DNA from: a virus
Length of the DNA: 28,427 nt
Virus record (IMG/VR): IMGVR_UViG_3300025128_000235
Coordinates: 1-28,427 of that record
Strand: one strand, 5' to 3'
Part shown: positions 7,608 to 13,133 of the stretch, one piece after another
How the letters are laid out: every line of letters starts with the position of its first letter
Numbering within the stretch: the stretch's first letter is position 1
Program-made: the position numbers and the translations under genes
The notes under the pieces: model-generated
Database searches by the model: none
Told to the model about the DNA's origin: nothing
The model's input: only the letters and a program-made list of their open reading frames with translations

Positions 7608-7781
7608 ATGGGACCGCATACACTTATTAAACGGCCACATAATCTGGATGAAATTGTAGGCCGTCCTACTGGACAGGGCTATGGTGCTGCACGTAAGGGA
7701 CCGGCTGTAAAGGGACCGCCAAAGGATGTTGTAGTTGACGAAGACTACGAACAGGGCAAAGCTTTTAAAGTAGAAGACTAA
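7608..7781 (+). CDS. Small hypothetical protein, 57 aa
   Basis: ATG 7608 directly follows the previous stop, with AAAGGAG about 10 bases upstream. The product begins MGPHTLIKRPHNLDEIVGRP, has a middle GQGYGAARKGPAVKGPPKD and an acidic end (VVVDEDYEQGKAFKVED). The GYGAARKG element resembles the RGYGKA element in the tails of neighbouring proteins. It lies two bases before the transglycosylase gene. Its function is not recognised. Confidence 0.6.
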   Translation: MGPHTLIKRPHNLDEIVGRPTGQGYGAARKGPAVKGPPKDVVVDEDYEQGKAFKVED

Positions 7782-7783
7782 TC

Positions 7784-9241
7784 ATGGTTGCAAGAGATCA
7801 ACTCTTAAAAGCTATTGAACAGGTTGAAAGCGGAGGACGCAGAGACGCTGTTAGTCCTAAAGGTGCCAGAGGTCGTATGCAGGTTATGCCAGCAACGGCA
7901 CGGCAACCGGGATACAGAGTTAAACCTGCTCGTGATGAAAGCGAAGAAGAGTATACCAGAGTTGGTAAAGACTATGCTATGGCATTGCTTAAAAACTATG
8001 GTGGTGATCTTGAGGCTACACTTGTTGCCTATAACTATGGACCGGGAAATGCTAACAAATGGATAGCTTCTGGTAGAAATAAAAGCGATCTTCCCAAAGA
8101 AACCAGAGATTATATTACCAAAGTTGGCAAGCAACTTGGAGGAAAAAACATGGCAACTAAAAAACAACTTACCGATCAAAGAAAAGCTTTGCAGCGTAAG
8201 GTGCGTAGTGGTAGTGCTACTGACGCTGATAAAAGAAAATTAAAACGTATTCAAATTGAATTGGGTTCTAAGGGTAAGACTACAGCTAAAGCAAAAGCTT
8301 CTGCATCTAAAGTAAAGAGACGGAATACTTCTCTTCAACGTGAAGCTGCTTCAAGAAAGGCGGAAGCAGGTCGTAGAGCGGCTCTTCAACAATTAATGGA
8401 AGACTCTCTCCCACTAGATGAAGACGTTGCAGGTAGAGCTTTAGATCAAGGCGCATATGCTAAGTATTCAGAACCACAACGAGCCGCTCTTAATAAGGCA
8501 CTACAAAGAGAACGTACTCCTTCAGACTTTGAAAGAACACCTCAACGTGGAGGAGCGTTTATAGGATCACCCCCTCTTCAACGTAGAGCAGACGATATAG
8601 CTTTACCTTTTAATAGAACCACAGGTAATAGGGGTACGATGCGTCCTCCTAATGTTGATCCTGATCTTCAACGTGGTGTAAGTCGTGTACCAAGAGGAGA
8701 TATGAGAATTGGTCCTTCCTCTCCAGAAATTACTGAAGCACAGTTTTCTTATACTGATCCCGGTACGATTCCTACTGAAGACCAATTTAGAGCTATGAGA
8801 GACACTCCAAGAGGAAGCGATACTCCTATAAGAGAAAATACGCAAGCCGATTATGTATCCAGTGGTGGTCGTGGTAAGATGGCTGGTAATAAAGGTTATG
8901 AAACTCTTCGTGAGTATTTTATTGAAGACATGACACCTCGCAAATCTAATGTGATGACTCCTTTTGGTATTATTGAAATTGACAGTACTCAGGAAGGAAT
9001 GTTTCCTGAAGAAGGTATGTACAGTGAAAAGAAGGGTGGCCGCTTAAAAAAGAAGAAGCGTGTTGCTCGTAAGAAAGCTGCACCTAAAAAGAAAAAGGTT
9101 GCTGCAAAGAAGAAGCCTGTTGTGCGTAAGAAAGCTGTTGCAAAGAAGCCGCCCATGCGTAAGAAGACTGTGGCTAAAAAACCTGCTGGTCGTAAACGTG
9201 CAGCCAAGAGAGGCTTTGGCGCAGAACTTAGAGGTAACTAA
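7784..9241 (+). CDS. Lytic transglycosylase domain fused to a long basic tail
   Basis: Residues 1-120 form a short SLT (lysozyme-like) domain: IEQVESGG with the presumed catalytic Glu15, GRMQVMPATA at 30-39, AYNYGPGN at 82-89 and ETRDYITKV at 106-114. These enzymes cleave the MurNAc-GlcNAc bond of peptidoglycan; in virions they open a local path for the tail or ejected proteins. The remaining ~365 residues are unlike known hydrolases: basic helices (125-200), a polar low-complexity middle, and residues 412-485 made of Lys/Arg-Ala-Pro repeats reminiscent of histone H1 tails, ending KRGFGAELRGN. An in-frame ATG at 8150 (residue 123, MATKKQLT) has an excellent GGAGGA site, so a second, shorter product without the enzyme domain is plausible. 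It is more likely a virion-associated hydrolase than the lysis endolysin. Confidence 0.8.
   Translation: MVARDQLLKAIEQVESGGRRDAVSPKGARGRMQVMPATARQPGYRVKPARDESEEEYTRVGKDYAMALLKNYGGDLEATLVAYNYGPGNANKWIASGRNKSDLPKETRDYITKVGKQLGGKNMATKKQLTDQRKALQRKVRSGSATDADKRKLKRIQIELGSKGKTTAKAKASASKVKRRNTSLQREAASRKAEAGRRAALQQLMEDSLPLDEDVAGRALDQGAYAKYSEPQRAALNKALQRERTPSDFERTPQRGGAFIGSPPLQRRADDIALPFNRTTGNRGTMRPPNVDPDLQRGVSRVPRGDMRIGPSSPEITEAQFSYTDPGTIPTEDQFRAMRDTPRGSDTPIRENTQADYVSSGGRGKMAGNKGYETLREYFIEDMTPRKSNVMTPFGIIEIDSTQEGMFPEEGMYSEKKGGRLKKKKRVARKKAAPKKKKVAAKKKPVVRKKAVAKKPPMRKKTVAKKPAGRKRAAKRGFGAELRGN
8138..8152 (+). promoter_or_regulatory. Internal ribosome binding site and in-frame start in the transglycosylase gene
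   Basis: GGAGGA at 8138-8143 lies 7 bases (counted from the end of GGAGG) before ATG 8150, in frame with the enclosing gene. It is a better site than the one before the annotated start at 7784. Initiation here would give a 363-residue protein beginning MATKKQLTDQRKALQRK, consisting only of the basic part. The site could equally be the relic of two genes joined by loss of a stop codon. Confidence 0.5.
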
Positions 9242-9242
9242 T

Positions 9243-9650
9243 ATGGTTGACTTTAAAGCTAAAATAAAAGCACAGAAATCTAAAGATAGAGAACGGGCTG
9301 GTAAAAAAAGAAAGTCTGTTGAAGGACATAGAATGCCTTCAGCACCAAGAGCTTCTATTCCTTCTGCTAGAAAAAGAGAAGATAATAGTGCTGCAATTAT
9401 GAAAGGTGTTACTGATCTTTTTAAAGACAAAGATATAGATATACCAACAGGTAGTGAAGTACAAGAGCTAGAAGATTATGTTTCTGGTTATGGTAATCCA
9501 ATAGGTGATGGACCTGCTGATGTTAGTTTTGGTCCGTTATATGAAGGAGCCGGTTATAGTGTTTTTAAAAAGGGCGGTCGTCTTAAAAAGGCTGGTAAAA
9601 GAAAACGTGCAGCACTTAGAGGGCAACGCTCTGAACTGAGAGGATCGTAA
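9243..9650 (+). CDS. Basic hypothetical protein with shared C-terminal tail (type X)
   Basis: ATG 9243 (MVDFKAKIKAQKSKDRERAG) follows the previous stop by one base; the frame is open upstream inside the transglycosylase gene but that part is a shadow. The 135-residue product has a basic N-terminal helix, a mixed middle (AAIMKGVTDLFKDKDIDIPT, then VSGYGNPIGDGPADVSFG) and a C-terminal tail FKKGGRLKKAGKRKRAALRG followed by QRSELRGS. The last 16 residues are the same as in the next protein. Function is unknown; the tail suggests the same destination as its neighbours. Confidence 0.65.
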   Translation: MVDFKAKIKAQKSKDRERAGKKRKSVEGHRMPSAPRASIPSARKREDNSAAIMKGVTDLFKDKDIDIPTGSEVQELEDYVSGYGNPIGDGPADVSFGPLYEGAGYSVFKKGGRLKKAGKRKRAALRGQRSELRGS

Positions 9651-9654
9651 CATG
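9606..9654 (+). repeat. Direct repeat X, copy 1 (end of the 135-aa gene)
   Basis: Bases 9606-9654 match 9889-9937 at 43 of 49 positions by hand alignment. They encode the RAALRGQRSELRGS tail, the stop, and the ATG of the following gene. Differences that change the DNA in the coding part are all silent. Confidence 0.75.
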
Positions 9655-9933
9655 AGTAATAAAAAATTAAGAAAGACTGTTACTTCTGATTTAGATAAAC
9701 CAAAAGAAGAAGAAAAGAAAAGTGAAAGAGATGAGCTTTTTGATAACTTAGGATCAGGCATGGGACTTTTACCTGCTGTTGTTGGAGCGATGGGTCCAAA
9801 AGGATTAACATCTATTGGACTTGTTAAAGGACTTTTTGGAAAAAGTAAGGGTGGTAAAATAGGTAAGAAAAAAACCACTGTTAAAAAACGTGCAGCACTT
9901 CGTGGACAACGCTCTGAATTAAGAGGATCGTAA
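9652..9933 (+). CDS. Small basic hypothetical protein, mosaic ends
   Basis: The 93-residue product starts MSNKKLRKTVTSDL, a leader repeated almost exactly (one change) in the protein at 10353. A charged segment (KPKEEEKKSERDELFDNL) follows, then a Gly-rich apolar stretch (GSGMGLLPAVVGAMGPKG), and the tail KSKGGKIGKKKTTVKKRAAL plus RGQRSELRGS, shared with the preceding protein. The apolar middle is too short and glycine-rich to call a membrane segment with confidence. The gene begins one base after the previous stop. Function unknown. Confidence 0.65.
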   Translation: MSNKKLRKTVTSDLDKPKEEEKKSERDELFDNLGSGMGLLPAVVGAMGPKGLTSIGLVKGLFGKSKGGKIGKKKTTVKKRAALRGQRSELRGS

Positions 9934-9937
9934 TATG
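9889..9937 (+). repeat. Direct repeat X, copy 2 (end of the 93-aa gene)
   Basis: This is the second copy of the 49-base repeat described at 9606-9654, 283 bases downstream. Again it carries the tail, the stop and the ATG of the next gene, so the repeat spans a gene junction. Confidence 0.75.
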
Positions 9938-10336
9938 GCTAAAGACTATAAAGATGATGTAAGTCTTTTTGAAGAACTTCTGGAAGAATATGAAGAAGAA
10001 GAAGATGCGGAAGAAGTAGGCTCTCCAGTTCCCGGTGATAACATTAGTGTAATACGCCAACAGGTACAGAGTGGCGGCGGCGGTGGCGGTGGCGGTGGTT
10101 TTCTTAAAACAATACTTCCCATAGCTGCTAAAATAGGAATGGGTTATCTGACGGGTGGTGCCAGTGCTGCTGGTGGAAGTACTTTTGCATCTGGATTTGC
10201 TGGCGCACCGGCAGTAGGTTTTAAAGAAGGCGGTCAGATAAAAAAGAAAACTAAGAAAAAGAAAAGAGTTGTTCGTGGTGTAGGAGCAGCTAAACGTGGT
10301 TACGGTAAAGCCACTTATTCTAATAAAATGTATTAA
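9935..10336 (+). CDS. Acidic head, poly-Gly, apolar middle, basic tail (type Y)
   Basis: The 133-residue protein is sharply divided. Residues 1-30 are acidic (FEELLEEYEEEEDAEEV); a linker leads to nine consecutive glycines (encoded at 10073-10099); an apolar stretch follows (FLKTILPIAAKIGMGYLTGG, then a Gly/Ala-rich run to FASGFAGAPAVGF); and the last ~35 residues are strongly basic (EGGQIKKKTKKKKRVVRG, then VGAAKRGYGKATYSNKMY). The tail is the same as in the protein at 10353. The charge asymmetry with an apolar centre would suit a membrane-active or DNA-contacting virion peptide, but no family is recognised. Confidence 0.65.
   Translation: MAKDYKDDVSLFEELLEEYEEEEDAEEVGSPVPGDNISVIRQQVQSGGGGGGGGGFLKTILPIAAKIGMGYLTGGASAAGGSTFASGFAGAPAVGFKEGGQIKKKTKKKKRVVRGVGAAKRGYGKATYSNKMY
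10073..10099 (+). repeat. Run of nine Gly codons (GGC/GGT)
   Basis: Nine glycine codons in a row, alternating GGC and GGT, form a short GC-rich microsatellite inside an AT-rich gene. It separates the acidic head of the protein from its apolar middle and probably acts as a flexible hinge. Length variation by slippage would keep the frame. Confidence 0.8.
10219..10334 (+). repeat. Direct repeat Y, copy 1
   Basis: Bases 10219-10334 match 10634-10749 (offset 415) with three mismatches, at 10234, 10243 and 10246. The last 88 bases (10247-10334) are identical. It encodes the basic tail FKEGGQIKKKTKKKK through YSNKMY of the 133-residue protein. Confidence 0.85.
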
Positions 10337-10352
10337 TGGATAGTCTTTAGTC

Positions 10353-10751
10353 ATGAGTAATAAATCATTAAGAAAAACTGTTACTTCAGACCTTGCTCCA
10401 AAAGAAGAGAAGAAGAAGAAAAAGAAACGAAAAGACCTTGCCGGTGGTGTAGGGAGAAGTGTTGTTGGTCAGATTCCTGTTGTTGGTCAATTTTTAGGTG
10501 CTGGCAATGCTCTTTTTCAAGGAATTACAGGAGAGCCGGGACCGTTTGGAAGTGGGTCTGGTATTGCAGAAGGAAATATAGGAAAAATACTTTTTGATCC
10601 TGATGATATTTTAGGTGCTTTCGGAGTGGATATTTTTAAAGAAGGCGGACAGATAAAGAAAAAAACTAAGAAAAAGAAAAGAGTTGTTCGTGGTGTAGGA
10701 GCAGCTAAACGTGGTTACGGTAAAGCCACTTATTCTAATAAAATGTATTGA
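10353..10751 (+). CDS. Mosaic basic protein: leader of one neighbour, tail of another
   Basis: The 132-residue product opens MSNKSLRKTVTSDL, nearly the leader of the protein at 9652, and closes with the same basic tail as the protein at 9935. Between them lie a Lys run (KEEKKKKKKRKDL), an apolar Gly-rich segment (GGVGRSVVGQIPVVGQFLGA) and a spacer (IGKILFDPDDILGAFGVDIF). It therefore looks like a chimera of two flanking genes. A 16-base gap separates it from the previous gene, and its stop is followed by a GAGGAG site for the next. Function unknown; virion association is inferred from context only. Confidence 0.65.
   Translation: MSNKSLRKTVTSDLAPKEEKKKKKKRKDLAGGVGRSVVGQIPVVGQFLGAGNALFQGITGEPGPFGSGSGIAEGNIGKILFDPDDILGAFGVDIFKEGGQIKKKTKKKKRVVRGVGAAKRGYGKATYSNKMY
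10634..10749 (+). repeat. Direct repeat Y, copy 2
   Basis: This is the second copy of the 116-base repeat (see 10219-10334). Identity ends at the stop codon, which is TAA in copy 1 and TGA in copy 2, so the duplicated unit is essentially the tail-coding segment. Confidence 0.85.
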
Positions 10752-10761
10752 GGAGATTAAG

Positions 10762-11442
10762 ATGGCAAGAGCTAAAATAGGTAAAGCATTTATAGATGCA
10801 GTTACAGGGACAAGCAAACCCACTTCTAAACCGGGCCGGAAGCGTAAAGCCAGAGGTGTTAAAGCCGCCACGCCTGAACAGAAGATGGGTGCTAAAGAAG
10901 CTAAGATGAAGCTTACTGACTTTAAAAAACTTTCAGATGCTCAACAGAAAAGATTTATTAAAGAAGCTAAAGATGCTAACAAGCCAAAGAAAAAGAAAAA
11001 GCCAGCCAAAGTAAAACGTAGTTCCAAAGATAATAAAGAACTGCAAGGTCTTATAGCGCAGCAAAAAAAAGAAATGAAAGAAGATGAATTAGGATCAGAC
11101 ATTCTTCCCAGACGACGTGCCACTGGTCCTACAGGACAAGAAGTAGAACAAGGTCCATTGCTTTCCAAAGTACCTACACCTAAGAAAAACGAAATGTCTT
11201 CTGAAACATATAAACGTCAGAAGAGAACAGGACAACGCCGCAGAGGAGAGTATGCTCCTCCTGCCAGTATGGTAGGCGAAGAGATGGGCATGGGCGGCAG
11301 AGGTCGTGAGATGATGCCTACTGGTAAAGAACTTGAAGAACTAATTTCAAGTGGCTTTGAGATTAAAAAGTATGGTGGTAAAGTAAGGCGTCGTATGGGA
11401 GGACAAGTACGAGGCTACGGTAAGGCTCTTCGTGGTTACTAA
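10762..11442 (+). CDS. Lysine-rich protein with GG-K/RGYGKA tail
   Basis: The ATG at 10762 (MARAKIGKAFIDAVTG) follows a GAGGAG site; the frame is open upstream only through the repeat. The 226-residue product has a basic start (SKPGRKRKARGVKAA), charged helices (LSDAQQKRFIKEAKDANK), a Lys run (KPKKKKKPAKVKRSS), a polar middle and the tail EIKKYGGKVRRRMGGQVRGY followed by GKALRGY. The tail follows the same scheme as those of the five preceding proteins but is not a recent copy. The role is unknown; DNA binding is likely from composition. Confidence 0.65.
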   Translation: MARAKIGKAFIDAVTGTSKPTSKPGRKRKARGVKAATPEQKMGAKEAKMKLTDFKKLSDAQQKRFIKEAKDANKPKKKKKPAKVKRSSKDNKELQGLIAQQKKEMKEDELGSDILPRRRATGPTGQEVEQGPLLSKVPTPKKNEMSSETYKRQKRTGQRRRGEYAPPASMVGEEMGMGGRGREMMPTGKELEELISSGFEIKKYGGKVRRRMGGQVRGYGKALRGY

Positions 11443-12061: not shown

Positions 12062-12459
12062 TGATTAAACGTAAGAAAGGCGGCACAGCCACTAAACGTG
12101 ACCCAAAGAAGTGGGCAGCGGCAAAGGCCAGAGCAAAGCGTAAGATGGGCGGTAAGCACTCTGCCAGAGCTATGCAGCTTGCTGTTAAGTATTACAAAGA
12201 TTCTGGTGGATCATACAGCGGTAAGAAAAAGTCTACTAATAAACTTTCGAAGTGGAGCAAACAAAAATGGCGCACGAAGTCAGGCAAACCCTCCAGCAAA
12301 ACCGGGGAGCGTTATCTACCGGAGAAAGCAATCAAGTCCCTGTCGTCAAAGGAATATGCAGCGACCACCAGAGCAAAGAGAAAAGGGACTGCTGCCGGGA
12401 AGCAGTTCGTGAAGCAGCCAAAAAGAATAGCGGCTAAAACTAAAAGGTATAGAACGTAA
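12061..12459 (+). CDS. Basic protein, DUF5872-like
   Basis: The 132-residue product is one-third Lys plus Arg (44 residues). It has the order KKWAAAKARAKRKMGGKHSA, RAMQLAVKYYKDSGGSYSGK, KWSKQKWRTKSGKPSSKTGE, RYLPEKAIKSLSSKEYAATT and KQFVKQPKRIAAKTKRYR. I recognise this as a conserved small family of large DNA viruses and phages, listed I believe as DUF5872 (from memory). The regular spacing of Trp, Gly and Lys blocks suggests folded helices rather than pure disorder. Its start and end both overlap neighbours by one base. Function unknown; nucleic-acid binding is a natural inference. Confidence 0.8.
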   Translation: MIKRKKGGTATKRDPKKWAAAKARAKRKMGGKHSARAMQLAVKYYKDSGGSYSGKKKSTNKLSKWSKQKWRTKSGKPSSKTGERYLPEKAIKSLSSKEYAATTRAKRKGTAAGKQFVKQPKRIAAKTKRYRT

Positions 12460-13133
12460 TGGCAGTATCAGGAACATATGACTTTAACCTTGACATAGAC
12501 GAGGTTATACAAGAAGCAATGGAGATGATTGGGGGTGAAGATACTCTTGGTCACGAACCTGCTTCTGCACGTCGATCTATAAATTTAATGTTGCGAGATT
12601 GGCAAAACCGTGGTATACTATTATGGACTACAAGTGTATCATCTCTTACTGTAACTGCAAGTACTACTTCTTATGATCTATCTTCTTCTACTATAGATGC
12701 TCTTGAAGTTGTGCTTAACAGAGATAATACAGATATTAAATTAGAACGTATAACACCTGAAGAGTTTTTGCTTATTCCTAATAAAACACAAACTGGAAGA
12801 TCATCTCAGTATTCAATCAGAAGGGGCAGGGACAATCCTGTTATGTCTGTATGGCCTATTCCTGAGAACTCTACAGATATTTTAAAGATTGAGGTATTCA
12901 GTGAACTTACCGATGTAAACAAATCGGCAGATCAGAATGCTGATGTTCCTAAAAGATTTTTACCCTGCCTTACTGCGGGACTGTCTTACTATATGTCAAT
13001 GAAACGATTTGGTGTAGATGCTGGTCGTATACAAATGCTAAAGTCAAACTATGAAGAGTGTCTTGCCAGAGCTATGCAGGAGGACAGGGAAAGAGCTTCA
13101 ATGCGTGTTGTGCCAAGACTAAGGTATATCTAA
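12459..13133 (+). CDS. Head-tail adaptor-like protein (second copy; tail tubular A type)
   Basis: The 224-residue product has an N-terminal helical domain (DIDEVIQEAMEMIGGEDTLG, then SINLMLRDWQNRGILLWT), a beta-rich middle (TASTTSYDLSSSTIDALEVV) and C-terminal helices (LTAGLSYYMSMKRFGVDAGR, then LKSNYEECLARAMQEDRERA). I recall N-x-M-L-x-x-W-x-x-x-G-x-x-L-W followed by a YxL strand from adaptor (gp4/gp11-like) proteins of short-tailed phages, which bind the portal base and hold DNA in the head. It resembles that family more clearly than the protein at 5793-6473. TAATG overlaps link it to both neighbours. Confidence 0.7.
   Translation: MAVSGTYDFNLDIDEVIQEAMEMIGGEDTLGHEPASARRSINLMLRDWQNRGILLWTTSVSSLTVTASTTSYDLSSSTIDALEVVLNRDNTDIKLERITPEEFLLIPNKTQTGRSSQYSIRRGRDNPVMSVWPIPENSTDILKIEVFSELTDVNKSADQNADVPKRFLPCLTAGLSYYMSMKRFGVDAGRIQMLKSNYEECLARAMQEDRERASMRVVPRLRYI

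Follow-up and report, generated by a model that had tools for sequence, protein, structure and literature searches.

Endolysins made as two polypeptides from a single gene with an in-frame internal start have been described by Pinto et al. (2022; PMC9430671), who report such starts past the enzyme domain to be frequent in the endolysins of phages infecting Gram-positive hosts; that study left aside phages with Gram-negative hosts, as well as lysins suspected to be virion-associated. Further examples are reported for CTP1L (PMC4777826), LysIME-EF1 (PMC7098653), phi2638A (PMC12203907) and Ms6 LysA (PMC3111421).

The gene considered here lies in a stretch of viral DNA of 28,427 nucleotides (IMG/VR record IMGVR_UViG_3300025128_000235), the whole of which is referred to as the window. 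A preliminary description had pointed to a strong internal start site within a transglycosylase gene, and offered as readings either a second protein lacking the enzyme or the fusion of two genes. The observation was accurate, apart from a spacer off by one base, and the interpretation is partly supported; the two readings can be joined: a once-separate gene would lie within an enzyme fusion, with its own start probably still active.

The SLT gene and its internal start site

Table 1. Features of the SLT fusion gene and its surroundings in the window.
Feature	Position	Strand	Basis or remark
Slot-marker gene, 57 aa	7608..7781	+	conserved in SLT-carrying and SLT-less relatives; stop 2 bases before ATG 7784
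GTAGAAG, weak ribosome-binding site before the full-length ORF	7770..7776	+	within the last codons of 7608-7781; -1.8 kcal/mol
Full-length fused gene, SLT enzyme plus cassette protein, 485 aa	7784..9241	+	ORF and Pfam match
SLT transglycosylase domain PF01464, residues 6-101	7799..8086	+	E 4e-18
Putative internal ribosome-binding site GGAGGA	8138..8143	+	read from sequence; anti-SD energy; kept in relatives
Internal in-frame ATG, codon 123 of ORF 7784-9241	8150..8152	+	retained in 17/17 contigs
Nested ORF, cassette protein, 363 aa	8150..9241	+	no Pfam/PHROG match at E 0.1
Cassette segment (YETLREYFIEDMTPRKSNVMTPFGIIEIDST...) common to stand-alone slot genes L100, L180, L168, L080, L077 and others	8855..9046	+	
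Lysine-rich C-terminal part ending RAAKRGFGAELRGN, in the style of the following genes' endings	9029..9238	+	
Further cassette genes with similar basic ends (9243-9650, 9652-9933, 9935-10336, 10353-10751, 10762-11442)	9243..11442	+	

The N-terminal domain scores 65.4 bits against the PF01464 cut-off of 21.3, assigning it to the SLT (GH23-type) family with peptidoglycan cleavage as the predicted activity. Glu15, within an ES motif, is invariant in an alignment of close SLT relatives and aligns with residue 478 of Slt70 (1qsa), which we take to be the catalytic glutamate. By location only, the fusion gene falls between an adaptor-like gene and further structural genes. Its nested half (8150-9238) is lysine-rich and related to stand-alone cassette genes, with no Pfam or PHROG family found at E 0.1, and the AlphaFold model of the 485-residue protein, too weak overall to build on (mean pLDDT 47, pTM 0.21), has a break at residues 119-125 followed by helices to about residue 173. 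A search with the whole protein against 50,697 phage records returned no place covering 80% of it, the matches listed covering approximately 22-31%, and a scan of bacterial and archaeal genomes yielded a single distant SLT only, in Sphingobium.

The GGAGGA, the in-frame ATG and the 363 codons to the stop at 9241 are all as first described, with a spacer from GGAGGA of 6 bases (8144-8149), or of the reported 7 only if counted from GGAGG. The ATG, formerly placed exactly at the end of the enzyme domain, is near that end but lies a few residues past it, because the Pfam match ends at residue 101 and SLT homology in other phages at approximately residue 114-120. As to anti-SD pairing, 8150 is indeed the better start, as proposed, with -9.3 kcal/mol versus -1.8 for the gene's first ATG, although that first ATG may be translated by coupling, because it sits 2 bases past the stop of the marker gene, which has a strong site of its own (-8.7).

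Measured as pairing with the 16S end, the site at 8150 shares second rank when set among the 33 gene starts (34 starts in all), three of which equal it and one of which surpasses it. Of 127 in-frame ATGs lying inside genes of the window, it is the strongest. Local opening energy at 8150 is middling at 8.7 kcal/mol, indicating a moderately unstructured region, with medians of 7.3 for gene starts (n=33) and 12.1 for other internal ATGs (n=126), 26 of which are more open than 8150. Synonymous-codon shuffling within each gene generates a mean of 2.9 GGAGG/AGGAG-plus-ATG sites per window versus one observed, with at least one such site in 97% of shuffles and a site at 8150 itself in 32%, ruling out the motif by itself as a novelty. 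Since the motif is within chance expectation in the window, the case for 8150 is built on relatives.

Conservation, module boundary and the cassette slot

A junction-blind scan, with patterns taken only from residues 9-15 and 29-35, far from the junction, recovered 15 contigs carrying the same SLT; the ATG at codon 123 is present in all 15, and in 17/17 with the addition of the window and the partial contig L006. Loss of the GGAGG with retention of the protein sequence, named in the preliminary description as evidence that would count against it, does not occur in these contigs, GGAGGA being kept in 15 of the 17 and replaced by AGAGGAG in two through a Gly119 to Arg change, with zero insertions or deletions between the SD and the ATG. 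The pairing energy of the internal SD is -9.3 in 10 of 11 distinct sequences and -9.1 in L010/L011 (GGA to AGA, AGGAG intact).

Codon usage was counted in 12 of the 17 contigs (11 distinct), omitting the near-copies L002, L004, L011 and L013 and the partial L006. The junction codons for Gly-Gly 119-120 read GGA or AGA, then GGA, in all 11 sequences, and those for Gly-Gly 17-18, also GGAGGA in the window, take 4 and 3 different forms. However, of the 92 degenerate codons whose amino acid is invariant, 56 show no variation at all across the 11 sequences. The power of the comparison is therefore low, three quiet codons are unremarkable, and codon conservation was set aside as proof of selection on the SD.

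Within the clade, conservation is far stronger in the SLT domain than in the tail, with SLT identities to the window's protein of 91-98% in eight aligned relatives and 89% in L017, L018 and L049. Directly past ATG-GCA (Met123-Ala124), the protein switches to one of two unrelated types: type A, ATKK-LTDQRKALQRK, in 6/17 contigs (the window and L002-L006), and type B, A[RK]RPL---KQ--LSELTKK, in 11/17 (L007-L013, L017, L018, L048 and L049). DNA identity between the types is 0.81-0.92 up to the ATG, with 0.85 immediately before it, and then 0.58, 0.23, 0.28 and 0.07 in 15-base blocks, the value of 0.23 being reached fifteen bases past the ATG; in SLT-less relatives, the identity drop falls at the slot gene's own first ATG. 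On these alignments, tails in the SLT clade are exchanged at the internal ATG, and the junction is a module boundary. The N-termini of both tail types, searched in named phage genomes, gave no match. Derivation of the KQLGGKNM junction from a cassette ending of the form '...LRGx' plus stop, considered because cassette ends also carry AGAGGA, was not adopted, as unrelated SLT domains (L052, L055) have similar LGG/LRRG endings.

Even among phages whose capsid proteins are approximately 90-100% identical (e.g. L067, L112, L140, L168, L180), the first gene past the 57-aa gene is hypervariable. The 57-aa gene itself is conserved across a large group of marine phages, collected via the capsid protein (the best 80 of 578 relatives) and via the gene itself (at least 80 loci), and 258 sequence records were read for the slot behind it. 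An ATG ORF follows the gene in 175 of these, giving 130 slot genes distinct by their first 200 residues: 11 with the SLT of the window, 3 with other SLTs and 116 without SLT. Slot-gene starts were assigned by rule, taking the first ATG that qualified, and the 116 include some proteins that do not belong to the cassette class (e.g. relatives of gene 12459-13133). The SLT-less genes mostly have a good ribosome-binding site of their own (median -6.4), and 61 of the 99 that are complete have a basic C-terminal end according to a rough pattern, which overlooks some other ends of this kind. The contig L067 combines a capsid protein 100% identical to that of the window with a plain 302-aa slot gene. 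Taken from these comparisons, the slot would be a site of cassette exchange.

Nine stand-alone SLT-less slot genes match parts of the fused genes' tails: L100, L180, L168, L080, L077, L137, L192 and L256 match the C-terminal half (best E each 1e-22 to 2e-8), with L100 matching the window's nested half at 67% over 64 residues (E 1e-22), and L140 matches the N-terminal 47 residues of the type B tail (E 1e-10); the matches of L140 and L256 are to tails of other SLT-clade members, not the window's. These common stretches therefore place the nested half in a class of genes that otherwise stand alone. An arrangement with separate, neighbouring genes for enzyme and tail, suggested earlier as worth seeking in relatives, was found in none of the 130 distinct slot genes. 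Of the gene fusion first proposed, the part that stands is a downstream half that was historically a separate gene and became fused to an enzyme, whereas the suggested 'loss of a stop codon' is unsupported.

From gene 7784-9241 onward, successive gene ends in the region 9029-11442 are basic and alike (RAALRGQRSELRGS, VRGVGAAKRGYGKATYSNKMY, VRGYGKALRGY), and genes 9935-10336 and 10353-10751 share an identical run of 38 residues at the C-terminus. To judge from the sequences, proteins that otherwise differ seem to carry a common C-terminal tag. AGAGGA (9639-9644 and 9922-9927) supplies C-terminal Leu-Arg-Gly codons and is also located at the expected ribosome-binding site of the next gene, and so tag and start signal may share the same bases. 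In L074 (6465-7823), a second capsid-gene piece (residues 147-188) lies 0.3 kb past a complete copy, at the contig end.

Further SLT fusions and competing explanations

Two further SLT subfamilies have been fused into the slot, one in L084/L086 (SLT 27-28% identical by blast) and one in L250. The enzyme parts of L084 and L086 are near-identical, with AAGGGAGAAGGTAAAATG (-8.4) at the point of divergence; the tails part a few codons past Met-Ala-Thr-Pro, itself preceded by AAGGGAGAAGGTAAA (-8.4). The tail of L250 is 84% identical to the stand-alone L166 gene from residue 4 on (324 aligned positions), and its internal ATG, one codon off that of L166, has a weak site of -2.9; a fusion is therefore viable without a strong internal start. 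Among 471 internal ATGs of SLT-less slot genes, used as a control, 3 have a site as strong as -9.3, 4 as strong as -8.4 and 148 as strong as -2.9. By this reading of the sequences, a strong cassette start is kept in two of the three fusions and absent in one, and the three are probably independent events, judging by low SLT similarity and not by a tree. L250 (9091-10548) and L166, with a different SLT before a cassette gene, constitute a nearly clean before/after pair for domain fusion.

The start at 8150 is best read as that of a once-separate gene, because its ATG and SD are kept, the tail swaps at the ATG, stand-alone relatives exist and other fusions are found in the same slot; we consider it probable that an SLT domain was fused in front of a formerly separate cassette gene whose start was kept and is most likely still used. 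In the ancestor of the clade, as comparison shows, a lytic-transglycosylase domain of the SLT type was joined in frame before the cassette gene, whose ribosome-binding site and ATG were retained inside the fused gene. Ribosomes ending the 57-aa gene would then start 2 bases on, despite the weak site, to produce enzyme with tail, and other ribosomes would load at the GGAGGA to produce only the cassette protein, for which relatives have a gene of its own. Comparison with relatives establishes the fusion, its boundary and the kept start signal; that the internal start is in use and a second protein made is likely, and both the use and the ratio of products are what we infer from the same comparison. 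The earlier suggestion that the virion thereby carries many tails and few enzymes is speculation, and the phage may have no need of the tail as a separate product, because the window has other cassette genes downstream.

A plain gene fusion, producing the 485-aa protein only, would render the tail's start signal a relic or a chance product of Gly-Gly-Lys codons, and is a possibility of some weight, albeit a rather unlikely one: the frequency with which shuffling recreates the motif, the statistical weakness of the three-codon conservation and the fusion of L250 with only a weak internal site are each compatible with it, but the start is kept in every one of the 17 contigs, with AGGAG outlasting the one amino-acid change, and the strong internal site of L084/L086 is matched by so few control ATGs. 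A sequencing error joining two genes into one ORF is highly improbable. The near-identical contig L002 (3197-4615) has a frame break past residue 236, through assembly error or real mutation, and errors therefore do occur in such contigs, but the in-frame junction is identical in 17 clade contigs and in-frame fusions exist for two other SLT types, and assembly error is refuted by the agreement of the 17 independent contigs.

The formerly separate start could also have become the main one, with the first start hardly used and a little enzyme made via coupling to the upstream gene. This variant draws on the SD energy of the first start, -1.8 in 11/11 distinct SLT-clade genes versus a median of -6.4 in the 116 SLT-less slot genes, of which 18 are as weak. 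It appears unlikely, however, given that the stop of the 57-aa gene 2 bases before ATG 7784 favours efficient coupling, that L112 carries a weak first-start site identical to that of the SLT clade before an SLT-less gene, that the first starts of L250 (-7.7) and L086 (-5.8) are strong, and that the SLT domain is much better conserved than the tail. A wider proposal extends the preferred reading of a nested, formerly separate gene: the slot would be a cassette site for proteins whose basic C-termini act as a signal, probably for loading or targeting, and to which an SLT was added at least 3 times with the strong start kept in 2/3, such that tagged enzyme and plain tag protein together form a dosage device for enzyme cargo; this is offered tentatively, and we would not expect it to hold in full.

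Relation to described phages and nested genes

The nearest named phages by capsid protein are Pelagibacter HTVC023P/HTVC027P, Roseobacter CRP-901/902 and DSL-LC04, at 52-55% identity, and the hosts of the nearest named phages comprise Pelagibacter, Roseobacter, a gammaproteobacterium and cyanobacteria. A related capsid protein is shared with these phages, as is, in most of them, an adaptor-like protein. In the annotated stretches of HTVC027P, CRP-901 and DSL-LC04, none of the genes past the adaptor gene bears an SLT-fusion annotation, and the main text of PMC9599517, concerning HTVC023P-type phages, is without the terms transglycosylase, lysozyme, lysin, SLT, hypervariable and internal virion. 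None of the papers listed in literature searches, judged by title and abstract opening, describes an SLT gene of a virion or of Gram-negative context with a nested start.

If the preferred reading is true, nested-start enzyme genes would extend from endolysins of Gram-positive phages to marine phages related by capsid to those of SAR11 and Roseobacter; a route of origin for such genes would be evident, in which an enzyme domain is fused before a complete gene, start signal included; and there would be a hint of a common C-terminal tag on many proteins of these phages. Nested production from a structural region has a precedent in lambda C/Nu3, where initiation at an internal, in-frame start additionally yields the C-terminal half on its own. 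Unlike lambda C/Nu3, the present gene holds no protease/scaffold pair, its N-terminal part being a cell-wall enzyme in a variable locus.

The closer likeness in layout is to the two-polypeptide endolysins: an N-terminal peptidoglycan-hydrolase domain is followed by an internal ribosome-binding site and ATG, here the GGAGGA and codon 123 past the SLT match, with a common stop and a C-terminal half possibly made alone. The fused gene would work as those genes do, and is a candidate member of their class. The C-terminal product of the two-polypeptide endolysins is usually the cell-wall-binding part, whereas here it would be a basic cassette protein without known domain; the enzyme part belongs to the SLT transglycosylases and is encoded among the structural genes of a marine phage, and a once separate gene supplied the nested start. 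Nested in-frame starts are already known from endolysins of Gram-positive phages, on the account given in PMC9430671, and the present gene is another variant.
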